Assembly: GCA_944470555.2 (NCBI GenBank)
Contig: OX104134.1
Coordinates: forward strand, 98,078,701 to 98,142,700
From: Heterobilharzia americana
Taxonomy: Eukaryota > Platyhelminthes > Trematoda > Strigeidida > Schistosomatidae
Direction of reading: 5' to 3'
DNA: 64,000 nt
The position numbers were made by a program, and so were the translations under genes. The notes beneath the pieces are model-generated. The model was not told the origin of the DNA. It saw nothing but the letters and a program-made list of their open reading frames with translations, and searched no databases. Of this stretch, positions 16,060 through 59,100 are shown piece by piece (the stretch's first letter is position 1; each line of letters begins with the position of its first letter).

Positions 16060-16790
16060 TGCATATAGGCTCTTAGAGTTTCGCATCAGTATTTTCCGTA
16101 TCAGAGTAACATAATACAAATATCTTCGTCAGAATAGCTGAACTGTTTTGTCTAGCGCTCTACACAGTCTGTGGTGTAGAAACAAACCACCATCACAATT
16201 ACAGCGATCACAAATATTCGAGTTACACTGATCATAATGATGTCGACGATCATCATCATGAGCACCACCACTGTAATCATCACACACCAACCCTCACAAA
16301 GTGTGTAGAGAAGCAGTCTCCCATACTACGTTTAGTTATATGAGGCTTTCACAGTTCGGTCTCATACTCCACAGTCACTCGCTCTTGCAAACACGTGCAC
16401 AATCATTGACTCACTCTCATGAATTTTAATAACTGATTAGATTAATGTTTATCTACCAGATTTTGGCTGAAACACGTTTTTACTTTCCAACCATTTGTGT
16501 TTTCTTTGGCTTATCTTGCCTTTTTCTATCAGTTATGACGGTGAAAATAGAAGAGCGTCGCATCACCGTTGAATTCATTGTTGAAAGGACCGTGTGCAGT
16601 AGAACTATCATACCAGTCGTGCGGAAGTAGGCGTTTCGGATGAGCACTGCTAGCTTTTAAACATAAACACACACCAAAGGTTATTTCAATACAACATCTT
16701 ACCCTTCGGAGTTAAAAGTGTCCCCACCATATTGCAGCAATGAATGAACAACATCCCGGCTGACATTCTGGGAGTTGCTACTTCTCTGGA
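16060..16790. repeat. Left arm of large inverted repeat
   Basis: This block returns in reverse complement at 24028-24730. It contains, in order, a TATAAA-bearing flank, a start-less histidine-rich reading frame, a 60-codon open frame of unknown meaning (16445-16630) and a short piece of gypsy reverse transcriptase. The inner parts of the arms are almost identical. The outer ends, upstream of the histidine-rich frame, have diverged strongly. Confidence 0.9.
16122..16343 (+). pseudogene. Histidine-rich secreted protein paralog, start codon lost
   Basis: A 73-codon open frame aligns with the N-terminal half of the duplicated gene at 44014-44310. Both have the hydrophobic leader ending in a cysteine (FCLALYTVCGVET here, LCLSLYILCEVET there), then His/Asp-rich sequence with HHHNYSDHK, DDHHHEHHHC and NHHT. 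The codon aligned to the functional ATG is ATC, and no in-frame ATG lies between it and the upstream stop at 16107-16109. A TATAAA at about 16053 sits where the functional gene has its TATA box. It ends at TGA, earlier than the functional protein. It is probably a pseudogene, unless a spliced or non-AUG start is used. Confidence 0.7.
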
Positions 16791-19865: not shown

Positions 19866-20062
19866 ACCAACATAAAATATCTGAGAAAATCAGAAGTCTG
19901 AACAATGCAAGAACAAAGATATGTTCAGAATAAAATGAGTCCAATTAATTTCATGGTCTTTTATCAGCTCCAAACAGCCTACAACTGAAATGAATTATTA
20001 GCAGTAATAAAAAAATAACATACTTTAGACAAACAGAAACAAACGGATTCAGGATTAACAAT

Positions 20063-20764
20063 AGGGTAGTAAGTCAAAGAAACACAAGATTAATAGTTAC
20101 ATACCTTAGTCAAAATTTATGCTATCTATATCTGATGAGATGGAAAATTCTAGAGCTGTGGAGTAGGGGGATGACCAACGAAAATCAGTGCAAAAGAAGG
20201 GACTGTTCAAAGGCCAATAGGTTACACAATTACAAGAAAAACTGGAAGAATCGTCAAGTGATTAATATTCAGTAAGTAATTAATGAAGAGATGATGCAAT
20301 TAAAAGAAAAGGGAAGACTATATACATCCATATGCAAAAAATTACATACATTTACCGAGGTAAAGAAAGGTTAATTAATTAAAGTCTCCTTCTAAGTACA
20401 TAGGTCAGGTTCAAAATGTTTGATAGCGAGAGCCTCCGCAAACCGTAATAAACATGGTGTTCTTTGTTTGTTGATCATCCTGAAAGATTGAGAAACATCT
20501 ATTTGATGTCCCGTTTCCATCAGATGCCTGGCGATTGCGCTTTTAAAGACCTTTCTCCCATTCAGACACAGATTTCTCGGAATATGCTCATGACATCGAG
20601 TAGACGCCCTTCTTTCAGTCCATCCTAAGTACTTGCTACCACTAGCACAGGTGAAATGATATACGCAGTTGCAGGTGACGTGAGATGGGTATTTGTCTAC
20701 TTTCGACTGTTCTATTGAGCATAATGTATTGTAAACTGATATCAGTCTGGCATCACGGAAGCTT
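20063..20764 (-). mobile_element. Inverted terminal arm of Penelope-like element
   Basis: This is the reverse complement of 21963-22664 over about 700 bp with near identity. One base is missing near 20115 (TTTATGCTATC against TTTATGGCTATC). It contains the whole C-terminal GIY-YIG coding module and the 3' untranslated region. The minus-strand open frame 20392-20823 therefore repeats the last 128 residues of the main frame, behind 15 unrelated residues. Inverted partial copies at the 5' side are a known hallmark of Penelope-like elements. Confidence 0.85.
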
Positions 20765-20904
20765 CTTACCACCTCATTTTGTTCTGCAAATGTCTTTGTT
20801 CGTGCATTGTTCAAATTTGTCAAGGGAAATAAATGTATGACATTTCTGAAAAGACATCCCCCTCTTCAAACAATAAAGTCGCTGAATCGGGTAGTGACTA
20901 CGTT

Positions 20905-22336
20905 GCAGAATGGCTAGACAGTCCACCAAGGTCAAGTTTTATGAGCGATGTTTGCAAACTGACTGCTTCCTACGTACTTCTTCCAAAGTTATTCGGTCAA
21001 TGAAACTTCCTCCTTTTCAGAAGAATTTACGTCCGATAACCAAATGGCATCTTGAAACATCGAATACAAACATCTCCACACTGAAATCTCAGCTATCTAT
21101 ATTTGATGACCTTCTTGATGAACTGAATATTGTTTGCCACATACATTTCACTAATTTTATCTATGACCTACAGTCGAAGACATCTAGAAGCTGGGAGAAT
21201 AAACTCATCAAATCCATAAGTCCATAATCTGTCAACAGTCTGATCTACTACCATTGCCGAAAACAGAACTCAATCAATTACTGCTCCTCTGTACAAAAGG
21301 TGTTCAGCTCCAGTTTAATAATCAACTATACTGGCAAACTGATGGGGTGTCTACGGGTTCACCACTAGGACCTATCTTAGCTGATATATTCGTGGCTCAT
21401 CTCCAGCGAACAAGCCTGAATGCTGCGATCAAGGAAATGACACATTATTGCAGGTATGTCGATGATACTTTCATCGTTTGTGATAATATGAATCATGAGT
21501 CAAAGTTGTTCGACACCTTCAATCAAGCTCATTCAAACATTAATTTTACAATGGAATATGAAAATGAGGACAGATCCAGTTATTTTGATCTAAGTATAAG
21601 ACGAAGATGTGATGGTACAGTTGAGAAAATTATCCACAGAAAAGACGCGTGCATCGGTCAGTACCTTCACTACAATAGATTCTGTCCAATCAACTATGAG
21701 CGTGGTTTAGTCAGGACGTTATTCACGAGAATAAAAAAGCTGAGCTCTAAAGATATACAAGAAGAAGAATTCGAGATAATTGAAAAGGCTCTTATAGAGA
21801 ATGCATACCCGAAGGAACTCATCATGAAGCATGGAAAAGAACTTACTGAGAGACCAAAGCATCCAACTGTTGAGAAGAAGCCTGTTTTCCTTCGCCTAGC
21901 ATTCAAAAGCAATGAGACATCTGAAAGAATAGACAGAAGAATAAAAGCTGCACTGATAAGGAGCTTCCGTGATGCCAGACTGATATCAGTTTACAATACA
22001 TTATGCTCAATAGAACAGTCGAAAGTAGACAAATACCCATCTCACGTCACCTGCAACTGCGTATATCATTTCACCTGTGCTAGTGGTAGCAAGTACTTAG
22101 GATGGACTGAAAGAAGGGCGTCTACTCGATGTCATGAGCATATTCCGAGAAATCTGTGTCTGAATGGGAGAAAGGTCTTTAAAAGCGCAATCGCCAGGCA
22201 TCTGATGGAAACGGGACATCAAATAGATGTTTCTCAATCTTTCAGGATGATCAACAAACAAAGAACACCATGTTTATTACGGTTTGCGGAGGCTCTCGCT
22301 ATCAAACATTTTGAACCTGACCTATGTACTTAGAAG
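20905..22336 (+). CDS. Penelope-like reverse transcriptase with GIY-YIG endonuclease
   Basis: An N-terminal piece (20910-21227) is followed, after a short frame break, by a 359-codon frame (21254-22333). This carries the RT palm: TGSPLGPILADIF (motif B), YCRYVDDTFIV (motif C with both catalytic aspartates) and YFDLSIRR. A linker follows, then the GIY-YIG nuclease (CVYHFTCASGSKYLGWTERR, with downstream CHEH). Such proteins nick DNA and prime reverse transcription from the cut. The frame is 5'-truncated relative to family members of about 700-800 residues, since the usual N-terminal RT fingers are missing, and it has a frameshift near 21230-21254. This copy is probably not autonomous but is young. 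It resembles the schistosome Cercyon-type group. Confidence 0.85.
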
Positions 22337-22664
22337 GAGACTTTAATTAATTAACCTTTCTTTACCTCGGTAAATGTATGTAATTTTTTGCATATGGATG
22401 TATATAGTCTTCCCTTTTCTTTTAATTGCATCATCTCTTCATTAATTACTTACTGAATATTAATCACTTGACGATTCTTCCAGTTTTTCTTGTAATTGTG
22501 TAACCTATTGGCCTTTGAACAGTCCCTTCTTTTGCACTGATTTTCGTTGGTCATCCCCCTACTCCACAGCTCTAGAATTTTCCATCTCATCAGATATAGA
22601 TAGCCATAAATTTTGACTAAGGTATGTAACTATTAATCTTGTGTTTCTTTGACTTACTACCCTA
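21963..22664 (+). repeat. 3' arm of Penelope-like element (direct copy)
   Basis: The partner of the inverted arm at 20063-20764. It spans the GIY-YIG coding end, the stop at 22331-22333 and about 330 bp of 3' non-coding sequence, ending near TTTGACTTACTACCC. Confidence 0.85.
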
Positions 22665-22689
22665 TTGTTAATCCTGAATTTCAAATCTC

Positions 22690-23515: not shown

Positions 23516-24027
23516 CAATTGATTTACTCATGTTGTGTGTGACTGACAAAAGTCCTATGAAAAATAATGACATCATCCTATTTGCAAATGGTGTTATTCA
23601 CTTGAAACATAGTTTCATCCACCGGGCAGTTAGCGCAAAATCACTTCACACTGTTTCGTGAGATAATTGAGCACATTCATTTAAGTAATATCAAATGCAC
23701 CACACCTAAGTTGCAACTCAATGTTTTTGATGACGAAAATGTCAGTCGACTCCTGGTTTCTCCGACATCGTCACCATCATCCGACAGGCAGATGCAATTA
23801 GTTACTTTTCGACAATGATCCAGGCTATGCATCTTACAACTTTAATGAAGAAATATTTCGTTGCATATCACACGACATTAAAATACGGCGCTTCACGGAA
23901 AATGAACGGGTTGGGAATCTAACACATAAGGGAAATCGAACTGATTAGATGACTGGACATAAAGATCTCTGGAACAATAAATATGGAATATAAATAGAAA
24001 ATATAGTGGTGGATGTTTTTCAGTAGA

Positions 24028-24730
24028 GAGAAGTAGCAACTCCCAGAATGTCAGCCGGGATGTTGTTCATTCATTGCTGCAATATGGTGGGGACACTTTT
24101 AACTCCGAAGGGTAAGATGTTGTATTGAAATAACCTTTGGTGTGTGTTTATGTTTAAAAGCTAGCAGTGCTCATCCGAAACGCCTACTTCCGCACGACTG
24201 GTATGATAGTTCTACTGCACACGGTCCTTTCAACAATGAATTCAACGGTGATGCGACGCTCTTCTATTTTCACCGTCATAACTGATAGAAAAAGGCAAGA
24301 TAAGCCAAAGAAAACACAAATGGTTGGAAAGTAAAAACGTGTTTCAGCCAAAATCTGGTAGATAAACATTAATCTAATCAGTTATTAAAATTCATGAGAG
24401 TGAGTCAGTGATTGTGCACGTGTTTGCAAGAGCGAGTGACTGTGGAGTATGAGACCGAACTGTGAAAGCCTCATATAACTAAACGTAGTATGGGAGACTG
24501 CTTCTCTACACACTTTGTGAGGGTTGGTGTGTGATGATTACAGTGGTGGTGCTCATGATGATGATCGTCGACATCATTATGATCAGTGTAACTCGAATAT
24601 TTGTGATCGCTGTAATTGTGATGGTGGTTTGTTTCTACACCACAGACTGTGTAGAGCGCTAGGCAAAACAGTCCAGCTACTTTGACGAAGATACTTGCAT
24701 TGTGTTGTTTCTATGCGAAACTCTAAAAGC
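24028..24730. repeat. Right arm of large inverted repeat
   Basis: Reverse complement of 16060-16790. It begins with the gypsy RT piece (minus strand, LPFGVKSVPTILQQ to LGVATS), continues with the same 60-codon frame (24184-24369, identical in translation) and ends beyond the histidine-rich frame. The region corresponding to the TATAAA of the left arm is degraded here (about 24730). Confidence 0.9.
24471..24692 (-). pseudogene. Histidine-rich secreted protein paralog, second start-less copy
   Basis: It has the same length and almost the same sequence as 16122-16343 on the opposite strand, with changes in the leader (FVKVAGLFCLALYTVCGVET) and none that break the frame. The codon at the functional start position is again ATC (24692-24690). 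The only nearby ATG (24700-24698) is out of frame, and an in-frame stop lies at 24713-24711. Loss of the start therefore preceded the inverted duplication or was shared by gene conversion. Confidence 0.7.
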
Positions 24731-43836: not shown

Positions 43837-43842
43837 TTTATT
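43837..43842 (-). promoter_or_regulatory. Poly(A) signal of histidine-rich gene A
   Basis: TTTATT on plus is AATAAA on minus, about 170 bases after the stop. The equivalent in unit B is at 46896-46901. Confidence 0.6.
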
Positions 43843-44013: not shown

Positions 44014-44310
44014 CTATGCAGTGTTTGAACTGACAGTAGTGTGATGATGCTCGTCGCGGTGATGATGATGGTGATGGTGATCGTGGTGATCGTGGTCGTG
44101 GTCGTGACTGTGTATATGGCCAACGCCTTTGTGGTCGTCGTAGTCATCATCGTGATCATGGTGATCATCGTCAGTGCAATTTGCATGATGCACATGGTGG
44201 TGGTCATCATCGTCGTGGTGATGATCACTATGGTTCCCTTTTCCGTGTGTCTCCACTTCACACAGAATGTAGAGTGACAGGCAAAGTAGGGTGGTCAGTT
44301 TGACGAGCAT
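44014..44310 (-). CDS. Secreted His/Asp-rich protein, copy A
   Basis: A 98-residue intronless frame. Residues 1-17 (MLVKLTTLLCLSLYILC) form a signal peptide. The mature part is dominated by His (31 of 98) and Asp (19), arranged as HHHDDDDHHH, DDDHHDHDDDYDDH and a run of alternating HD ending in seven consecutive His (residues 78-84). Two N-glycosylation sequons are present (NHS at 26, NCT at 44). Such composition suggests extracellular binding of zinc, copper or haem, or pH-dependent polymer behaviour; this is inference, as I do not recognise a named family. A TATA box lies at 44390-44381, about 75 bases before the ATG, and AATAAA follows the stop. Of the overlapping frames on both strands, only this one has a signal peptide, so it was chosen. 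The paralogs at 16122 and 24471 keep this frame and support it. Confidence 0.8.
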   Translation of the reverse strand: MLVKLTTLLCLSLYILCEVETHGKGNHSDHHHDDDDHHHVHHANCTDDDHHDHDDDYDDHKGVGHIHSHDHDHDHHDHHHHHHHRDEHHHTTVSSNTA

Positions 44311-44380
44311 AGATGTGTGTTGTATTGTGCTGTGTGGTGTTGTTCGGATGAGGAGAGTGTCAGTGAAAAATCGTGAACGC

Positions 44381-44390
44381 CTATATATAC
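44381..44390 (-). promoter_or_regulatory. TATA box of histidine-rich gene A
   Basis: Minus strand GTATATATAG, 71-80 bases upstream of the ATG, implying a short 5' leader of roughly 40-50 nt. It is preserved at 47440-47449 in unit B and as TATAAA near 16053 beside the left paralog. Confidence 0.65.
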
Positions 44391-44464
44391 TGGTGACAGA
44401 GATGTGGTTGTGACTGAATGCAGGTTTTGTGTGATTGAGAGTTGGAAATGAGGTCGATCGTTTA

Positions 44465-44704
44465 TCACATTGTCGACTATTGGATTATGTGAGGTGAAAC
44501 TAGTGACCTATATCGTAATGTTGAGAATGTCAATGTGAGAGGTCATGCGAGTATGATAATGGGTGATTTTGATAGTTTCCTGTGATTTGATAAGTGACTG
44601 TGAACAGGTTGAATGATGTGTTTAGTGTAGAATTTGAACATCTCTCTGTTGATTGTTCACAAGCATTTGGATGTGTGAAGTAGTCAAGGTATGTTTGTGA
44701 TGTC
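44465..44704. repeat. 240-bp segment that recurs inverted at the unit junction
   Basis: The 5' flank of the histidine-rich gene (about 155-395 bases upstream of its ATG) recurs in reverse complement at 46626-46865, between the two units, and directly at 47524-47763 in unit B. Confidence 0.9.
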
Positions 44705-46593
44705 TTATTCATGTCAATGTGTGTGTGTGTGTGTGAGTGTGTGAGAGGATGAAGGAATGAGTGGGTGAGTGATTGGATATGTGAGTGAGTGAGTGGTTAG
44801 TTGTGTTATTGATTGAGTGATGAGGTGAATGTGTGATAACTTGATATTGAGACAATCTACAAGTGTATATGTGAGCCCTTCCCGACTGCCTGCATACACT
44901 AGGTGGACTTATCCAATCACAATGTCACTCGGTGTGAATTTGCAAATTGGACAGACAACCCAAGTCTTACTGCTGGTATTATTAATACGTCTGACAAAAG
45001 CAAGGATTTTGTGTGCTTTTGAAATTGGAACCGTGAAAGTTTCATTCTGCCAAGCATCCATCGATTTCTTTCCGATCTGCCTTGCTTAAAGCACCCAAAG
45101 ATATTCACAATATACCATTTGAGTGAGTTGGTAGGTGAACGAAATCATCGAGTGTCTTGTTTGAATTTCATACTATGTTTGTCAGAGACTATATGGAGTA
45201 TTACATCCTGAAATATCAAGAAATTGTAGCAGTTCGTGAAGATACGCTACACAGTTTGGCTAATGTGAACATCAAGATTAGTTATAAGGCTAAGATCAAA
45301 GAATGTCAAACATAAGGCGCCAATCTGGGTGCAGAATCGTGTGTAGCAAAGGCATCTTCAGCCTGCAGTTGAAATGGTGGGTTAGGCCCGAAAACACGTG
45401 CACGCCAATCTCATTCGACCTGATTCCCCGCCTCAATATTCACCTCACTTTCATTGACTGACTGTTGTTCACATGCAATGACGAACTCCCCGATGCCTAT
45501 GCACCTTACTTCTGATTGCTAATTACACCCGAAGCAGTCATATGCACAGTTGACGGTAAACGAGTATTAGGAAACAGCAAGTTTGAGTTTAAATTGATGA
45601 TCACAGACGAGGTAAGAGTAGCAATAACACTGTAGCGGTGATTGTCATTGTATGTGTCGTGCATTGATCAGTGTCACAGTTCATATGGTGGAGTTAAATA
45701 GACTAGAGATGTACTTTCATCAGTCTCAATGTCGAACGCTTTAGGCATGACCATCTACGTGATCTGGTTCAAGTTTGCAATGATTTCAAATCATCTTCTT
45801 GCTCATTCAAGTAGCGAATTCACATGTTTGATACAGATGAACTCAAGACCACACATCTGTATTGAGCATAAACTTTTAAGAACAAGGAAATGAGACGACC
45901 TTTCAGTTTCGTCGATTTTCACACCTAGACTTGCACAGAATTTTGTGCATCAGAACTAAACATTTGTTTGATTTCAAACTGTGGTGTAGTTGATGGGGAT
46001 GAGGAAAGTGTGCCAGTTCAAGGTTTGTGACTTGGTCATCGGGCAGCATTTTGCAGACTATGTGTGTTCCATATCCTGTCTACATTGACAACAAGTAACA
46101 TTCAGTAGCATCACTCTTCTTCGTTGTGTGCAAGGAAGAAGCGAATTAAATATCCACGACTGTTCGAGTGAATGTTTTTCCAAAATACTTAGAAGCATTG
46201 GTGTGGGCTACATAACTTGTCTTGTTCATGTGAGGTTATCTTGTCGACGGTCTACGCAGTGTAGATCTGAGAAGAGTTCTCAACTCAAGGTTTCGTAACG
46301 AATAGGAGCTAGGATATGAACGCGTAAGTAATAACTTGTAACCTAGACGGAAAGCATAGTATGCAAATTGTTAATTCAGTGCTCAAGATGCAAATTTTCA
46401 CGGTGAGACATCGTGATCGGACACGTCAACAAACTGTAGGTAAGCAGTTGAGGACGGACTTCACATACACTTCCAGGTTACGTGAAAATAAATTTATCAA
46501 ACTAAACTACGGAGAAGGCTTTTTGATGCGACTCATGTGCCTGCAATCAAGCATCAGCAATCACGCAACAACACACACAGTCCTCCAATGAAT
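44705..46593. other. Upstream part of unit A, no gene recognised
   Basis: Contains a short (TG)n run (about 44717-44733) and several open frames of 60-86 codons that also occur in unit B. Because the units are nearly identical, that conservation says nothing about coding. No domain or splice chain seen. Confidence 0.4.
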
Positions 46594-46625
46594 CACACAC
46601 AATCAAAATCTAACTGACACGTACT

Positions 46626-46865
46626 GACATCACAAACATACCTTGACTACTTCACACATCCAAATGCCTGTGAACAATCAACAGAGAGATGTTCAAATTC
46701 TACACTAAACACATCATTCAACCTGTTCACAGTCACTTATCAAATCACAGGAAACTATCAAAATCACCCATTATCATACTCGCATGACCTCTCACATTGA
46801 CATTCTCAACATTACGATATAGGTCACTAGTTTCACCTCACATAACCCAATAGTCGACAATGTGA
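46626..46865. repeat. Inverted copy of gene 5' flank at tandem junction
   Basis: Reverse complement of 44465-44704. It ends four bases before unit B starts at 46870. At variable sites it carries unit B's base at one position (CAGGCATTTGG) and unit A's at another (GTATGTTTGTG), so it is a mosaic. Confidence 0.9.
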
Positions 46866-47072
46866 AGCAAAACACAGTGGTGTTAATCAGGAAAATTTAT
46901 TTCAGCTAGAATGTCGGAACTAAACACAAAGGTGGGTGTTGACGGAAACACATGATTGAGTGAGTCAGGTCAGGTCAGTGTGAGTTTGGGATGAGTGTGA
47001 GGGTGAGAGTGAAGTATTTGACTGGACTGTTGAAGAATGATGCAGCGAAGCCTGCTGGGGGATGGCTGTTCT

Positions 47073-47369
47073 CTATGCAGTGTTTGAACTGACAGTAGTG
47101 TGATGATGCTCGTCGCGGTGATGATGATGGTGATGGTGATCGTGGTGATCGTGGTCGTGGTCGTGACTGTGTCTATGGCCAACGCCTTTGTGGTCGTCGT
47201 AGTCATCATCGTGATCATGGTGATCATCGTCAGTGCAATTTGCATGATGCACATGGTGGTGGTCATCATCGTCGTGGTGATGATCACTATGGTTCCCTTT
47301 TCCGTGTGTCTCCACTTCACACAGAATGTAGAGTGACAGGCAAAGTAGGGTGGTCAGTTTGACGAGCAT
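47073..47369 (-). CDS. Secreted His/Asp-rich protein, copy B
   Basis: 98 residues, differing from copy A by one visible substitution (Arg for Ile at residue 66, from TCT/TAT on the plus strand). The signal peptide, both sequons, the seven-His run, the TATA box (47449-47440) and the AATAAA (47 bases beyond the start of the unit on plus, 46896-46901) are all kept. The presence of all control signals in both units suggests that both are expressed. A dosage role is plausible but not shown. Confidence 0.8.
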   Translation of the reverse strand: MLVKLTTLLCLSLYILCEVETHGKGNHSDHHHDDDDHHHVHHANCTDDDHHDHDDDYDDHKGVGHRHSHDHDHDHHDHHHHHHHRDEHHHTTVSSNTA

Positions 47370-47439
47370 AGATGTGTGTTGTATTGTGCTGTGTGGTGTT
47401 GTTCGGATGAGGAGAGTGTCAGTGAAAAATCGTGAACGC

Positions 47440-47449
47440 CTATATATAC
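47440..47449 (-). promoter_or_regulatory. TATA box of histidine-rich gene B
   Basis: Minus-strand GTATATATAG at the same distance from the ATG as in unit A. Confidence 0.65.
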
Positions 47450-49652
47450 TGGTGACAGAGATGTGGTTGTGACTGAATGCAGGTTTTGTGTGATTGAGAG
47501 TTGGAAATGAGGTCGATCGTTTATCACATTGTCGACTATTGGATTATGTGAGGTGAAACTAGTGACCTATATCGTAATGTTGAGAATGTCAATGTGAGAG
47601 GTCATGCGAGTATGATAATGGGTGATTTTGATAGTTTCCTGTGATTTGATAAGTGACTGTGAACAGGTTGAATGATGTGTTTAGTGTAGAATTTGAACAT
47701 CTCTCTGTTGATTGTTCACAGGCATTTGGATGTGTGAAGTAGTCAAGGTATGTATGTGATGTCTTATTCATGTCAATGTGTGTGTGTGTGTGTGAGTGTG
47801 TGAGAGGATGAAGGAATGAGTGGGTGAGTGATTGGATATGTGAGTGAGTGAGTGGTTAGTTGTGTTATTGATTGAGTGATGAGGTGAATGTGTGATAACT
47901 TGATATTGAGACAATCTACAAGTGTATATGTGAGCCCTTCCCAACTGCCTGCATACACTAGGTGGACTTATCCAATCACAATGTCACTCGGTGTGAATTT
48001 GCAAATTGGACAGACAACCCAAGTCTTACTGCTGGTATTATTAATACGTCTGACAAAAGCAAGGATTTTGTGTGCTTTTGAAATTGGAACCGTGAAAGTT
48101 TCATTCTGCCAAGCATCCATCGATTTCTTTCCGATCTGCCTTGCTTAAAGCACCCAAAGATATTCACAATATACCATTTGAGTGAGTTGGTAGGTGAACG
48201 AAATCATCGAGTGTCTTGTTTGAATTTCATACTATGTTTGTCAGAGACTATATGGAGTATTACATCCTGAAATATCAAGAAATTGTAGCAGTTCGTGAAG
48301 ATACGCTACACAGTTTGGCTAATGTGAACATCAAGATTAGTTATAAGGCTAAGATCAAAGAATGTCAAACATAAGGCGCCAATCTGGGTGCAGAATCGTG
48401 TGTAGCAAAGGCATCTTCAGCCTGCAGTTGAAATGGTGGGTTAGGCCCGAAAACACGTGCACGCCAATCTCATTCGACCTGATTCCCCGCCTCAATATTC
48501 ACCTCACTTTCATTGACTGACTGTTGTTCACATGCAATGACGAACTCCCCGATGCCTATGCACCTTACTTCTGATTGCTAATTACACCCGAAGCAGTCAT
48601 ATGCACAGTTGACGGTAAACGAGTATTAGGAAACAGCAAGTTTGAGTTTAAATTGATGATCACAGACGAGGTAAGAGTAGCAATAACACTGTAGCGGTGA
48701 TTGTCATTGTATGTGTCGTGCATTGATCAGTGTCACAGTTCATATGGTGGAGTTAAATAGACTAGAGATGTACTTTCATCAGTCTCAATGTCGAACGCTT
48801 TAGGCATGACCATCTACGTGATCTGGTTCAAGTTTGCAATGATTTCAAATCATCTTCTTGCTCATTCAAGTAGCGAATTCACATGTTTGATACAGATGAA
48901 CTCAAGACCACACATCTGTATTGAGCATAAACTTTTAAGAACAAGGAAATGAGACGACCTTTCAGTTTCGTCGATTTTCACACCTAGACTTGCACAGAAT
49001 TTTGTGCATCAGAACTAAACATTTGTTTGATTTCAAACTGTGGTGTAGTTGATGGGGATGAGGAAAGTGTGCCAGTTCAAGGTTTGTGACTTGGTCATCG
49101 GGCAGCATTTTGCAGACTATGTGTGTTCCATATCCTGTCTACATTGACAACAAGTAACATTCAGTAGCATCACTCTTCTTCGTTGTGTGCAAGGAAGAAG
49201 CGAATTAAATATCCACGACTGTTCGAGTGAATGTTTTTCCAAAATACTTAGAAGCATTGGTGTGGGCTACATAACTTGTCTTGTTCATGTGAGGTTATCT
49301 TGTCGACGGTCTACGCAGTGTAGATCTGAGAAGAGTTCTCAACTCAAGGTTTCGTAACGAATAGGAGCTAGGATATGAACGCGTAAGTAATAACTTGTAA
49401 CCTAGACGGAATGCATAGTATGCAAATTGTTAATTCAGTGCTCAAGATGCAAATTTTCACGGTGAGACATCGTGATCGGACACGTCAACAAACTGTAGGT
49501 AAGCAGTTGAGGACGGACTTCACATACACTTCCAGGTTACGTGAAAATAAATTTATCAAACTAAACTACGGAGAAGGCTTTTTGATGCGACTCATGTGCC
49601 TGCAATCAAGCATCAGCAATCACGCAACAACACATACAGTCCTCCAATGAAT

Positions 49653-50152
49653 NNNNNNNNNNNNNNNNNNNNNNNNNNNNNNNNNNNNNNNNNNNNNNNN
49701 NNNNNNNNNNNNNNNNNNNNNNNNNNNNNNNNNNNNNNNNNNNNNNNNNNNNNNNNNNNNNNNNNNNNNNNNNNNNNNNNNNNNNNNNNNNNNNNNNNNN
49801 NNNNNNNNNNNNNNNNNNNNNNNNNNNNNNNNNNNNNNNNNNNNNNNNNNNNNNNNNNNNNNNNNNNNNNNNNNNNNNNNNNNNNNNNNNNNNNNNNNNN
49901 NNNNNNNNNNNNNNNNNNNNNNNNNNNNNNNNNNNNNNNNNNNNNNNNNNNNNNNNNNNNNNNNNNNNNNNNNNNNNNNNNNNNNNNNNNNNNNNNNNNN
50001 NNNNNNNNNNNNNNNNNNNNNNNNNNNNNNNNNNNNNNNNNNNNNNNNNNNNNNNNNNNNNNNNNNNNNNNNNNNNNNNNNNNNNNNNNNNNNNNNNNNN
50101 NNNNNNNNNNNNNNNNNNNNNNNNNNNNNNNNNNNNNNNNNNNNNNNNNNNN
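49653..50152. other. Assembly gap (500 N)
   Basis: Exactly 500 N, probably an arbitrary-length scaffold gap. It cuts both tandem unit B and an exon of the DRC9-like gene. Confidence 0.99.
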
Positions 50153-53100
50153 TCCGATAACTCATGTAGCTTATTCAAGTTTTTCTCTTTTTTATCCTTG
50201 AGTTGACCTAAATCTTTTCTAAATTGTGCAATTTCGTTTTCAGCTTTATCACGCCAGAATTCTGCATGCTAGAATGGTATGTTTTAAAGAGTACCTCTTA
50301 AAATTGTGTATTATTGTAATAAATTAAAAACTGAAAAGCATTTAATCGTATGCTAACTATTTCGTTCAGTGTTTCATCCAGTGGAACAATATTATTTACT
50401 GAACGAAAGTCTAAACGTAATAAGTGTTGCATAATCCTATCAAAGGTAAGTCCCTGTATTTTACACCCTGCTTACATTGGACTAATGAAAAGCATTCACT
50501 TTAGATCAGGTTCATTTATCGTTCTAAAATCCTGCAGTTCATGAAAAGATGTTGAGAATTTAAGCATATCTGGAGAGCCAAAACCAACAGTAATTATTTT
50601 CCCGAATCAGTAATAACTTAAACAATTTGGCAACAGTAGAAATAACTATTCGAATTCGTTCAGTAGTATAATCTATATTTATGTCCATTGATACAGTATT
50701 TGATAGACTTCATCTCACTGAAATCAGAAAATCAACTATTTGGCGCCGAAATTCCTATGAACGTGAGGTTTTTATGTAATTTTGTTTTGTCTACTTTCGA
50801 AGATGCACTAGGTCCAAGATTTGTCCTTTCTTCATCTAAATTCGATATTGTTTGAGTTAATTCGATTAAAACAAACTCATACATATTTTGGTGGTTCCTT
50901 TACTGCTTTCTTTCTCATGTAAGCAGATAAACAGCGGATAACAAGAGCAGCATTTCAAAATCCTTCACAGATCTCCCATGAAACAAATCATCACATATCT
51001 GAGCAGCTCAGAAACAATCTCATAATATTTATCAACAGTGAGTTTACAGGTAATACATGACACTGAACTGGTGACTTGGTGGTAAAACAATCTTCAGCCT
51101 AATATTCAGACAATTTTAAGTTAAACACTGTCAATGAGCATCTAAAGTATACCACAAGGCTCAATGAAGTGAAGTTGACAGTTTTACTCAAAACTGCAAA
51201 TTTTCTTGATGTCATTTCTGCAGTTATTTTGTGATAATCTCATCACGAAACTGAGTTTATTTGTCTGTCTGATGAGTTTTTTTCCGTATTTTCACACCTT
51301 ATATTGTAAAGTAGTTTTAAAGTTTTTACTGAATATGTTTTATCTAGCAGGATTCTATAACCATGGACCTTATGCAAATATTTCACAGAATAAGTCAAGA
51401 GGGTTACTGAGTTTTTGAATATAAAATCAGGGAGAAATGGCAATTGGAAATATTTTTTTATTCAGACAGAGGAAAGGCAAATACAATCACGCTTCTGAAG
51501 CTTCATATTTTAATGATAGTTTTTCAAGTTTCATAATTCTGATTTTGGTTTATTAAATCACTATTACAAAAAATTTGTTTCAGATGCACTTATGACATAA
51601 AATCAAACCTGATGACCACATTTACAGGTAAATGTTTATTGAAGTAATATGACATCTGACCGACTCCTTGTGCTGAGCTTAGAAGACTCTGTTTTACTGT
51701 ATAGTCAGTCAATAAAAGATATCAATAAAATACACATACTTCAGCTTTTGCAACGACATCTTACTCAATAAAATATTTTACACTTTTGAAGGGTAAACAC
51801 ACTTCTAATCTTTTAATCCTAAAGTTAAACTGGTCATGATACTCAGACACTTCGAAAAGAAGTTGAAATATAAGGCGATAACTTATTTGATAGTGTGTAT
51901 GTATATTATCTTAATTGGATAGGTCCCAAACCTCCAAAGTTGGATACCACTAAAAGAAAACAACACCTGTTTTTATTGCAATAATGAGTAAAGAGTGCAC
52001 ATATGATGTCTCAGGCAAAATATCAAAAAGCTTGAAAAATCTTTACGCATGATGATTATTCAAAATATTTAGGTAGAACTTTACAGACCACTTTCACCTC
52101 CAAGAGAAAAATAATATTTTAATCAGCACTTAAGCCAAGAATTACATTACCACTTAGGTGAATTTAACAAGTTATCAATTTACAAAGTATTTTCTTCTAC
52201 TGAAAACCTACTTGTCAGAGAGTGTAAACAAACTGAACATTTGTTATACATATAAGGCTACCGTCTATCTCGATATTCGACATTAACTGAAGAACGACTA
52301 GGTTAGGAGCAGATTAACAGGGACTGAACCAAGGTAGAATAACATTCCATGAAGTCTCCGAATGTTACTTTAAGTAGCATAGCTGAAACTCGACTAATCA
52401 CCATCAACATTATCAACATAGGACCAGGCATTACTGCGTAACGGTCCGAGTTGCCACACCTCATATCAGTTCATCAAGTAAAAAGGTAGTGAGGTGAAGG
52501 ATGAAGATAAGTGAATGCAGTCAAAAGAAATATAAAGTACGAGAAGAAAGGAAAGAGGAGTGACAAAATGGTGAGATTCGGTATAGCGTTGTTAAGATGA
52601 GGATAATGTGTGTATACATCTGCGCCACTGACTTCGGTTCTGAGCCATATCACCTAGGGTCTCCAACCACTGGTTCCTCTTGTCCCGTGGACCCCAACCA
52701 CCTAGTCTGCATCGTCCTACATGGCTTAAACCAACAGTCAGAGACTTCATACATTGGTGCCATGTTTTAGTCTGGCCACCTCGGGCCTTTTTCCAGCCTG
52801 GACCCACCTCAGCCAACATTGTGTGACGAGGCAATCGGTGACTAGGCATACGTAGTACGTGTCCCAACCATCTCAGTCGATGAAGGTTCACAACCTCGTC
52901 GACTGACTTACCTCTTCTCCCTAAAACTCTACACCTAACTTCTGCATTACTCACATGGTGACACCACGGAATACGTCCTATACTACGAAGGCAACGGTGG
53001 TCAAACACCTGAAGCCTTTTTGTATTCTCCATTTTCAATGGCCATGTTTCACAGCCATACAGTAGAACAGAGCGGACTGCTGTGCAGTACACGCGACCCT

Positions 53101-56100
53101 TAATAGACAAACGAATATCACGGCGGCGCCATAGGTGGCGCAAATTGGCAAAAGCCAATCGAGCCTTTTGTATCCGTGCAGAAATCTCATCGGCAACTAA
53201 CCCACCGGGTTGATCCTACTTCCCAGGTAAGTGAAGTGGTCAACACACTCAACCACTTCACTCTCTATTGTTAACCGCGGTACCGCTGAAGACCAGTCCT
53301 GGAGCAAAAATTTGCATTTGGGTGGTGAAAATCGCATCCCAAACATTCTCAAATTCCCACTCAAAGTGTTCAGAAGACTCTGCATCTTGTCAGCGTCTTC
53401 ACCTATCAGGACTATGTCATCTGCATATTCTAGATCTAAAGAAAATTCACCTATGATTGGGTCAACGTCTGTGTAATTAGGTGACGAGAGGGAAACCTCC
53501 ATAAGAATATCTATGATAAAATTAAATAAGAATGGAGATAGTGGGCATCCTTGACGGACACCACTCGATGAGTATAGCTCCCTGGACAACTCACCATAGG
53601 CTCTAACATGCCCACAAGTGTTCGAGTAGAGAGCTTTCAATAAGGTGATGTACTTACTAGGCACGCCTTTCAGTGACAGACATTGCCATAAGACGGAGTC
53701 GAATGCCGCCTTCAGGTCGAGAAATACAGCTATTGTCGGGCGTCTGTAAGCATGCCTATGTTCCAGGACCTGGCGCAGTGTGAATATTTGGTCGATACAT
53801 CCACGGCCAGGTCTAAAGCCTGCCTGGTTTTCTCGGGCTTGCTGTTCCCGAGCTCCACTCAGGCGTCGGAGAATTATAGAACTTAGGATCTTAGACACTA
53901 TGTTCGTCAGGCTGATTCCTCTGTGGTTATCACAAGAGGACTTCTCGCCTTTCTTGAAGACTGGGATGATGAGTGACTTAGACCAGTCGGAGGGGATCGT
54001 ATTTGATTCCCATATACTGGCTAACACTTCCGTTAACCTGACTAAGAGCACTCTACCACCATTCTTGTATACCTCAGGAGTTAGTCCGTCTGGTCCCTCT
54101 GCCCTTTCTCGTTTCAGGTTACCTACCGCTTTCTCGACTTCTTCTAGTGTTGGGGGGCCTATCCCAGTGTTCCATTCAGGATCCGACTGGATAGCGGGCA
54201 GCGCAATGGTGGCTGGAGGCCAGTTAAACTGTTCCTCGAAGTGTTCTGCCCATCGTTCCAGTCGCCTCCCCTGCGAGTGAATCGCAGATCCGTCCTTCTC
54301 CGCTATAGCCTCACTAACTGTTGTTGACCATTTCCCCCCAGTCTCCTTAATAAGTCTAAATAACTGTCTACTGTTACCGATCGCCGCTGCCTTTTCCATC
54401 TCTTTAGCCTTTGCTGCCCACCACTGTTCACGATCGTTGCGCAGACTTTTCGTCAGTCTATTTTTAAGTTGCGCTCGCTCTTCATTGTACTCAGAGCCTG
54501 CAGGGATGCATTCACGTGCATCCATTAGTTTGGAAGAAGCTGCTGATATCCACTGGCTCTTTTTAGCCATTATCTTGGAGTCGGCTACAGTCTCCAGTGC
54601 TGCTTTTACAGTAGACTGAAGATGGCACCAAGCTTCTTCTGGATGAGTGACAGTCTTTTGTTCCGATAACTGCCTAGCCAACTTCTCACTGAACACGGCT
54701 TTGGTGTTTTCGTTGTCCAGCAGAACTCGTAGTGGTTTTGTTGCCAAATTTTTTCTACGTCCATTGAGACGCAGGCATATACGTGCTCGGACCAACGCAT
54801 GATCGCTGTCCAAACACGTACTCCAGAAGGAGCGGCAGTCTTCCACCGATCCTCTCCAGCGATGACTAATAGCAATGTGGTCTATCTGTGTCCATCGCTG
54901 AGTCGAGCTCGGTGGACGCCAGGTCAGACAGTGCCTTTCTTTATGTCTGAAATTTGTGCTGGCTAAAAATAGGCGGTTATCTGAGCATAGTTGTAATAGG
55001 CGATCACCGTTATCTGTACGTTCAGCTGGGATTCCGAAAGTGCCACCTAAGTGCCTTTCTGCCTCACTCAGTCTACCCACCTGTGCGTTGAGGTCACCTG
55101 CAACAACCACTACGTCCGAACGTTTGGCTTTCGAGAGGAGGTTAGACAGTTTATGGTAGAACTCGTCCTTCACTTCATCCGAACTACAGTCAGTGGGTGC
55201 GTAAGCAGAGATTACAAAGAGACAACGGCGAGTCTCACTATTCCTTTTAGTTCTCACTGTGCCGTTCAGCCTCATAGCGCAGAGGCGACTATCAACTGGG
55301 ATCCAGTCTAGTAGTGAGTTTTCTGCCCTGGTGCTTAATGCTATACCTACACCTGCAAGACCACGAGAGCTAGCTATCGAATCTCCAGAAACTCGAAGGG
55401 TGAATTTTGCAGATTCACCAGATTGGTCAGGAGAGGTCAGGTGAATAACCACACTTGGGTCCTGTATGCGTGTCTCACAAACACAGCACACATCCATGCC
55501 CGAGTTGCTAGAGTCTTTGCCAACGAAGCCTGTTGGCCAATTTGACGGAGGGTGCGGACATTGAAGGCTCCAATATGTAATTTGGAGCGTGGTTTAAGGA
55601 GACCAGGGATGCTGTTCTGTGGACTCAGATCGTTGTCGAAGGCTGCAGAGGTAGGAGAAATTGAAGATGATGCAGCATCATTAATTAAGAGACGTGAAGG
55701 AAGATTAGAAGGTAATGATGGAGGAGGAGGATAGCAGTCAGAAGAAACTTGGGTGCTGACAGAGTTGTGAGGGCGGTTGACACTTCCCGGCTGCCCACAC
55801 CGTGGAAGGCTATTTCTTCTTAAGGTACCTGAAAGAGATTTGTGTGACCGCAGAGCCCATCGGACATCTGCTTGAGGCCTGTCACACCCAGCCTTTTGAG
55901 TATGATTATTTTGAATTTTTGTATTTTTGGGGCCGGATGGGCGAAAGGAAACGACAAGTGAACCAACACCGCCGGCCCGGCAGACCGTGGGGCGTGGTGG
56001 AGTGTGTTATTTTTGGGGCCGACCTTTTCTAACCCCCCCTTCCACTGAGAAGGCAGCATCAGCTTGGCACTGCTGGTCATCCAAGGGAAACACCTTACTG

Positions 56101-59100
56101 CTGTCACACCCCATCCAGCTAGCAGCAGTACGACTTCGCCCTCAGACCCCCATCATAGTGTAGCAATTTACACTATAACGGTAACTGCTTTTCGTCTAAC
56201 CACTACCCAACAGACCTTTCTGGTATGGTAGGACCTCGAGGGAACAAGCGTTCCACCAGCATAGCTCGTTGGGTCATTGTGATATGCAAGCCCGACCACC
56301 ACGTCAAGGTAGCAGCTATCGGTCGGGTGAAACTCGACTACTTGGTTGATGTTACAAATAAGTGGTCGTAGACTATATTGACAGAGATCAGAATCAACAA
56401 CTTTGATGCAGATACTATTTAAGAATTTTGTTTGATATGTATTTTATTAGAGGTTCTGGTTATTCATTTATTTCATGTCGTTTCATGTGTTTCTTGCTTA
56501 CTTTAACATCACCCTACTTCTGCTGATTTAGTTTTTACAGGTGTTTTGTATTCTGATAACTTGATAGAGTGTACTTAGGTGGCAGCTTCTGCACTGTTTG
56601 TACCAACTTAACTTTTTAGTTACTACTAATAAAATAGACTACAGTTTAAGCTCACTTAAGAAACGTGCTTGCAAGTACAAATATTAAGGAATGCAGTCAT
56701 TTTCCTAGAAGTCCATTTTGTCATAAACGGTAATGTTCACAGTGCTTAATAGTCAGTTTACAGTAGAAAAAGATTATTTGAGTTCACCTTAATGGTTATC
56801 TTTTGGAATACATTTAACGACACGTACTTTGATGCGGTCGTTATTTATCTTTCCAGAATGGATGTTCACTCATCTCCTTTTTCTATTGTCTCTAACTGAC
56901 CCAAGAGCCAAATTACCACCACAAATAGCAGTTGGAGCAGTTTAGTCGAATTCATAACAGTTAGAGCAACTTTCTTTTTGTAATATGGAATATTTAGAAC
57001 ATCTATGAGTCATAGACTAAGATTCAATGCAGAGGCTGGTAGCAATCCTCTGGATAATATTTCTGCTCTTTTCATTATCCCATTAGAATGATAGCATTTC
57101 CTACTCATGATATTACAAGAAAACCTCGTGATATATATTATAAGTGGCGTGATAAATACCTTTTTTAAATAAGATAGACGTTCATTTAAATAAGAGGTAA
57201 CTTCTGCATGAACTCTTTCTTCTTTACTGCCACTGGATAGAGTGAAGTCAATCTGATTTTTGACTTCATTTTCTTTCTGATCACATTGACACTGAAATTC
57301 TTCTAATTTCACGGTAGACGAACGTGTTGTATACTTTTCTTCCATAATTATTTTAGCTTTCATTTCCTATTAAAATTTGAAGCATAAATGTGAAGTGCAA
57401 GACAGTTATTAGAAGGCAGCTAATCAAAAACTATTTTATTTATCACCTCGGATTTGTAAAGCTTCTTAACCGCTTCCTAGGAATGAGTATTCTTCATAGG
57501 ATTTGAACTTTAGTACTCATTGTTATGATCACTGAATTATTGTGAACTAAACCAAGGACCTTAAAGATGTGAACATGAATTGACCACCAGGTGTTAACCG
57601 ATGTAGCTATCACGTTCGAGGCCACTGTCAGAATCTGTCAATTAAGTTTGAGATGTTTCAGCTAAACTAAATGACACGAGGCTGTCGTACACTTCGCTTA
57701 ACTTAAGATGTTTGAAGCTATTTAGTGAAGAACTATGAGCATTAATGTCCAACCTGTTAATATTCATCAGAAAGATGTATCGTTAACCTCTATGAAGCTA
57801 ATGTTCCACGTAATACTTGCATCGCTCATAGAACGGTGCAAAACCTTTACGATCAAGCTATTTAGGTCATAAATACGCTTTCGTACGAACTGGTTATGTA
57901 AACAAAATATGAAACTTATTACCAGTAAAACTTGTGCACTGTGGTAGAATGTAATTCCACTTTGATTGATTCATTAGATTTATCACACAGTGTAATAGTG
58001 TTGTTTACTGGATTACTTTTCGGACATAGTTTACTGTTCATAGTCGTATCAACAAGGGGTATCTGCAGCCTCGAGGGAAGTGATGTCCTGCCTGAGATTC
58101 GAACCCACATCACCCAGTGTTGCAGTGACAGATATTGCCACTCAACTATTTGGCCACGATTCACCTACTGTAGGGTTGGATTAGGCCCACTGGTCGCTGG
58201 AGCTGCAGCGATTTCGTGTTGCCTGATCCTGAGTGCGGACGGAATTCTGGTGATCAACTGTGGCACCGAGTGACGTGGTGGGACATCGGTTCTCGTGAGG
58301 TTGCGGAAACGCCTTGGTGAAGATTGACAAAAAGCGTGAAACCTAGGTCCAGGGCTTTCTGTTGGTCGCCTACGACCAGCCAACATGCACCAAAAGTGAA
58401 CGTCAATCGTGAGCCTCCTAGCTTGAGACCACGCTGAAAAATGATCAGTAGAATTCGGTCAGCGCTCAGGACTGAAAAATTGGTTGCTCTCTAGTAACCA
58501 ATCAATTGATAATTTCACATTACTATAGGTAGGTGGTTCACAAAATTTGACCACCAAAAATGACTTGAGGCAGCCGTCTGAAGAGTATACTGGATGACAA
58601 AAGTCAACACTGTAGGGAAACGAAATTAACGTACTCTTGTAAGCTCTCACAGCATTTGAACAGTAGGATCACATTCAGCTAGTAATACCAACGTACATGT
58701 ACGTATGGTCACACATATGTAGTGAAAAGATGTCCAACTATGTGAGTTAGAGGTATCGAGTGAATTTCAAAATCACTGAGATAACAAATCAAATAGAAAG
58801 GTCCAATTCACCTAGGTGGTAGGGGTCTAGATTCTTTTATGGAAAAACGTATCACTAAAACAGGTCACAAGATTGATTCATATATATCTTTCAAACTTAT
58901 TTACAAATCTGTTGGGGACATAAACTTTGGTTGGTTAAAACTTCAAACATTAGGAACTTTAAGCCTCTCTTGTTTATTCAAACCCAATTCGCCATTATAT
59001 CAGACCAAACTTAGTAACTAAGCTTTCATATCAAAGGTGACTGACGTATTATCGTTCTCTTTGCATCGATGATTTGACCTCTGCATTAATAATATGACCC

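Follow-up and report, generated by a model that had tools for sequence, protein, structure and literature searches.

A probable local family of genes for secreted histidine- and aspartate-rich proteins, with decayed relatives, in Heterobilharzia americana

A 64,000-nucleotide stretch of the Heterobilharzia americana genome (C8:98078701-98142700; hereafter the window) carries two near-identical genes, A1 and A2 (Table 1), which are probably real, recently duplicated and taxon-restricted, would code for a secreted product rich in His and Asp and have decayed neighbours. The reading preferred here, to which we assign a probability of about 40%, is that of a taxon-restricted, apparently single-exon family coding for a secreted, largely disordered His/Asp polyampholyte, a metal carrier and pH-switched condenser likeliest to occur in egg or vitelline material. 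Low-complexity secreted proteins rich in His are a known kind of molecule; the A/B family is new to the searches made. If expressed, it would add to the secreted proteins of a parasitic fluke a family that has no annotated relative in those searches and whose extreme His/Asp composition predicts metal binding together with a reversal of charge at mildly acidic pH. In addition, the locus offers a compact case, spanning about 31 kb, of a low-complexity gene present in tandem and inverted copies together with decayed relatives.

The two 98-residue frames of the original prediction are present on the minus strand, and the encoded proteins differ at a single residue, position 66, which is Ile in A1 and Arg in A2. 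The composition of about 32% His and 19% Asp that had been given was reproduced by counting, with 31 His (31.6%), 19 Asp (19.4%), 2 Tyr, 4 Gly and 2 Ala among the 98 residues of A1, and past residue 20 the His and Asp contents amount to 39.7% and 24.4%, respectively. Both N-glycosylation sequons were located (N26-H-S and N44-C-T) and a signal-peptide-like start was recovered in both frames, as called by our own hydropathy rule rather than SignalP. The His/Asp stretch is open in multiple frames on both strands, and the length of the ORF is therefore little proof for A1 and A2. The His and Asp codons of A1 are mixed (CAC 18, CAT 13, GAT 10, GAC 9), with 25 runs at the third base against 25.9 expected and 21 against 24.5 at the first base. 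Since C and T are mixed at the third base, without run structure, the stretch does not have the character of a fresh triplet expansion.

Table 1. Coordinates of the A and B features in the window (position 1 is its first base).
Feature	Position	Strand	Description
A1	44014-44310	-	Intact 98-codon CDS: predicted signal peptide and His/Asp-rich mature chain
A2	47073-47369	-	Intact 98-codon CDS; Arg66 where A1 has Ile66
TATA box of A1, TATATATA	44382-44389	-	79 bases 5' of the A of the ATG
TATA box of A2	47441-47448	-	A1 counterpart shifted by +3059
AATAAA of A1	43837-43842	-	About 170 bases 3' of the stop
AATAAA of A2	46896-46901	-	A1 counterpart shifted by +3059
Unit 1	43795-46593		Gene, promoter and about 2.3 kb upstream
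Unit 2	46855-49652		Ends at first base of the N run
Inverted third copy of gene-upstream region (44465-44704)	46626-46865	-	240 bases, fused to unit 2
500-N run	49653-50152		Directly after unit 2
B1	16122-16343	+	Diverged decayed relative, 73 open codons
B2	24471-24692	-	Inverted partner of B1, same losses
Left arm of B inverted repeat	16108-16787	+	98.8% identity to 24706-24027
Right arm of B inverted repeat	24027-24706	-

A first alternative is that A1 and A2 are not genes, representing instead a triplet-rich, low-complexity stretch that is open by chance. This would accord with the openness of the stretch in several frames of both strands, with the open His- or Asp-rich triplet-repeat stretches found elsewhere in the genome (L003 and L004, described below) and with the lack of an annotated public relative of A1, but is considered highly unlikely in view of the elements flanking the frames. 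Both the TATA box and the poly(A) signal that had been claimed were found at A1 and at A2, and no ATG intervenes between TATATATA and the start codon of A1. With TATA boxes and AATAAA scored by simple consensus rules, an ORF of 90 aa or more that has a signal-peptide-like start and is accompanied by both signals was found two times in the window itself and in none of 150 simulated sequences (order-4 Markov, 63,271 bases each, trained on the window). These simulations form a lenient null, because long frames are less numerous in them than in the window itself, with a mean of 9.3 against 26 for ORFs of 90 aa or more, and of 0.31 against 3 for the signal-peptide-like ones. Across 264 kb around the locus, a looser signal-peptide rule is passed by 21 of the 410 ATG-initiated ORFs of at least 55 aa, and among those 21 only A1 and A2 have a TATA box and AATAAA in addition.

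Two relatives of the A genes, B1 and B2, were found by translated search of the window. The first 30 residues of A align without gaps to those of B1 and B2 at 47% and 50% identity, respectively, and CLxLYxxCxVET (including C-x-V-E-T) and the N26 sequon within N-x-S-D-H are common to A, B1 and B2. When A1 was compared at the DNA level with B1 alone, the likeness of the signal-peptide region (z=6.3) and of the 3' UTR (z=6.6) was in each case reached by 0 of 1000 first-order resamples, and that of the promoter and 5' UTR was not significant (z=1.3, 182 of 1000 resamples reaching the score). Over codons 2-21 the differences are distributed 7:4:12 on codon positions 1:2:3 between A1 and B1 (dN/dS about 0.24) and 7:3:11 between A1 and B2 (dN/dS about 0.22), a third-position excess with binomial p values of 0.048 and 0.056, respectively, which concern 20 codons and two relatives that are not independent of each other. 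The A/B comparison favours the frame choice of the original prediction and hints modestly at constraint on that part of the A frame which encodes the signal peptide. Both the homologous signal peptide and 3' UTR of B1 and the third-position excess for B1 and B2 further argue against a stretch that is open by chance.

B1 and B2 look like decayed genes in which 73 codons are still open. Each has ATC at the place of the A start codon, with an in-frame stop upstream of it, after four codons in B1 and six in B2, and no ATG between, and AATAAA has been lost from the homologous place in both. A homologous signal peptide with both motifs, a His-rich tail and a homologous 3' UTR are found in four members, A1, A2, B1 and B2, all located within about 31 kb. 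Judged by these shared sequence features, the tandem A pair is part of a four-member local family, two members of which are decayed and inverted. Since B1 and B2 are decayed, the family is not strongly retained. B1 and B2 are near-identical from just 5' of the lost start onward and their promoters have diverged, a pattern that could be the outcome of gene conversion between the inverted arms.

The tandem arrangement itself was upheld, both units being present with 99.6% identity across 2800 aligned columns and with seven substitutions in 2783 gap-free bases (0.25%), one of them within the coding part. Each unit carries a complete gene, as it reaches from about 40 bases beyond the poly(A) signal as far as about 2.3 kb 5' of the start. 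The word pair, in contrast, may under- or over-count the copies, since unit 2 stops exactly at the 500-N run. Only one other N run (229 N) occurs in the 264 kb examined, and the 500-N run is read as an assembly gap on account of its round length. The inverted 240-base piece has one variant in common with A1, one with A2 and one private base, a combination suggestive of a third copy in the history of the locus. The alternative of a single A gene, with A2 as an artefact of assembly in which one allelic copy was retained beside the other, is regarded as unlikely; the coincidence of the unit 2 border with the N run and a divergence of 0.25%, which could be allelic, would be in keeping with it, but no N interrupts the stretch that contains units 1 and 2, the joining inverted piece is absent to the left of unit 1, and variants of both units occur in this piece along with its private base.

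Further relatives were sought in the 664.9-Mb assembly (337 contigs), where only the best candidates were scored. The first 34 residues of A1 retrieved A1, A2, B1 and B2 and nothing else, the B members with E values of about 0.03, while the whole of A1 retrieved A1, A2 and, weakly, B2. B1 retrieved itself, B2 and three weak places (L030-L032, E 4.6-7.2), and a 401-base DNA piece matched A1 and A2 along with two short triplet matches (L003 and L004). Six-frame inspection led to the rejection of L003, L004 and L030-L032 as family members, none of them having a signal peptide together with a His-rich chain; L003 overlaps a frame resembling reverse transcriptase and L004 is a long triplet-repeat stretch. 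Among the best-scoring candidates of the 665-Mb assembly, no further credible family member was found.

A protein search, proposed in the original prediction as a check, was run on public proteins and returned no annotated relative of A1. With the whole of A1 none of 732 candidates reached E<=1, and with A1 inside a longer frame, for which a wider length range was used, none of 737 reached E<=10. Schistosoma proteins are included in this collection; the proteome of the species itself is perhaps absent. In a control of the scoring rather than of the tool's word filter, variants derived from A1 by substitution alone, with identity as low as 40%, scored E<=1 in 120 of 120 cases. B2 scores 20.6 bits against A1 and has one 5-mer in common with it; the public-protein negative covers closer relatives only, because B-like divergence would be missed. 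At E<=1, Pfam gave a single, irrelevant match for A1 (10 bits, below its cut-off) and PDB gave none, and the claim that no named family matches thus held for Pfam, PDB and annotated public proteins. No description of an A gene was found in the literature searched, which consisted mostly of non-subscription papers. 'Proline-Histidine-rich protein' occurs among the abbreviations of PMC6505934, and the available text of this source, like that of PMC7467314, PMC6708146, PMC4917872 and PMC2467291, contains nothing decisive on the A family.

AlphaFold, applied to A1 as a single sequence with no alignment, is confident for about residues 1-20 only, with a helix at residues 2-22, block means of 52-63 pLDDT for the remainder and no secondary structure past residue 22. 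Using textbook pKa values, the net charge of the mature chain was computed to pass from about +11 at pH 5 to between -16 and -18 at pH 7.4, by cleavage site, the change occurring near pH 5.8-6. It is established chemistry that clusters of His and Asp residues bind divalent metals and titrate near pH 6. The signal peptide would route the A product to the secretory pathway, and the mature chain, which would comprise some 75-81 residues with His at about 40% and Asp at about 24%, contains few Lys or Arg residues and may carry two N-glycans. Its His/Asp clusters should take up several divalent metal ions (Zn, Cu, Ni, Fe), their side chains should titrate between an acidic secretory vesicle and a neutral fluid, and the product might function in a secretion, both as a carrier of metal and as a condensing agent switched by pH. 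The likeliest site would be egg or vitelline material, with a gut or tegument secretion less likely. Like the original prediction, which offered metal, haem, egg and tegument roles from composition only, we infer transcription of the A genes and the secretion, metal binding and tissue of their product.

The egg and vitelline system appears to provide the best circumstantial case for the tissue of the A product. Eggshell formation is reportedly regulated by pH and calcium, according to the title of one cited study. In S. japonicum, a female bias of 727-fold is given for a 'histidine-rich glycoprotein precursor' (PMC4851400), and two 'histidine-rich glycoproteins' fall within the top 25 egg-enriched transcripts (PMC5223471). 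The S. japonicum His-rich glycoproteins AAW24542, CAX77751 and CAX82541 are also blood-fluke proteins, His-rich by name and female- or egg-enriched, and can be likened to the A product by name only. The S. japonicum eggshell is further described in PMC2758302 as containing abundant iron, with vitelline stores implicated and the part played by vitelline iron in the cross-linked eggshell raised as an open point, while DOPA-His and DOPA-Fe cross-links of the trematode eggshell are under discussion in PMC11727788.

Established eggshell proteins offer a further comparison, the TES and p14/p19/p48 proteins likewise being small secreted proteins from multi-copy trematode genes. According to PMC3499410, p14 contains 11% Tyr and 44% Gly, and the three precursors p14, p19 and p48 span 11-26% Tyr and 9.6-44% Gly. 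A1 was rejected as a shell precursor of the p14/p19/p48 type, its 2% Tyr and 4% Gly being far too low, and as a TES-domain protein, the Pfam search giving no PF08034 match. The TES eggshell domain (PF08034) has seven matches in the assembly, all on contig C3 and none on C8, and none in 14 control genomes. Together with the Schistosoma-like RTE-type element described below, these matches mark the genome as that of a trematode, probably a schistosomatid. Six of the matches were considered for a promoter comparison and four were used, with L040 excluded for its ambiguous start codon and L041 because the scanned strand gave no frame of 180 codons or more. A TATA box lies 82-102 bases before the assumed start in all four, and A1 and A2 also have one upstream of the start. 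TGCACTG occurs no more than 130 bases before the assumed start in three of the four, and is a possible candidate for a shared regulatory element of the TES genes; it stands 113-127 bases before the assumed starts of L037, L038 and L039 (C3), in two of them as TGCACTGCATGCACTG. Neither A1 nor A2 has TGCACTG within 600 bases upstream, which counts against the egg reading. The more specific proposal, a new trematode egg component outside p14/p19/p48 and TES in the form of a pH-switched polyampholyte that would pack Fe/Zn in vitelline vesicles and release or cross-link at shell formation, encoded by a young local array of tandem and inverted copies, is considered improbable.

The composition of the A product also allows other functions to be envisaged. 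It could be a secreted peptide, zinc-sequestering or antimicrobial, that acts at a surface facing the host or the snail and resembles peptides in the saliva of blood-feeding insects, where small secreted His-rich peptides of Glossina and Anopheles have been proposed to bind zinc (PMC2853526 and PMC2644710). These salivary peptides have the same broad build, with a signal peptide and a short His-rich chain in a small family, but belong to another phylum and are likened by description. In its mode of action the A product may resemble such His-rich metal binders. The high Asp content of the A product and its acidic charge at neutral pH are unlike those of cationic antimicrobials, and the public protein collection holds no relative of A1; this function is deemed quite unlikely.

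Schistosomes feed on blood, and the His content and predicted secretion of the A product would also be compatible with a protein of the gut, where blood is digested, that binds haem or promotes haemozoin formation in the manner of Plasmodium HRP2. HRP2 is a secreted, low-complexity and very His-rich protein with Ala-His-His repeats. The A product is, however, Asp-His rich rather than Ala-His rich, its residues mixed where HRP2 has Ala-His repeats, and A1 has no PDB or public-protein match; with only 2 Ala among 98 residues, A1 was rejected as HRP2-like in the sense of such repeats. A described schistosome haem-binding family, moreover, functions by way of a folded SEA-domain pocket, according to PMC3886910. 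A role in haem handling is given only an outside chance, and the preferred reading remains that of a metal-carrying, pH-switched polyampholyte.

Several other features were observed in the vicinity of the family. A nested inverted repeat (20047-20771 and 21954-22679, 99.6% identity) is situated between the B arms and overlaps a reverse-transcriptase frame (21203-22333, plus strand). To the right of the N run, two exon-like charged frames (50153-50268 and 57010-57366, both on the minus strand) gave no informative family match and are perhaps part of a neighbouring gene. RTE-type retrotransposon frames for an endonuclease and a reverse transcriptase occur at 52592-55593 on the minus strand, and the best-scoring public relative of this element, from S. 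rodhaini, is 71% identical.
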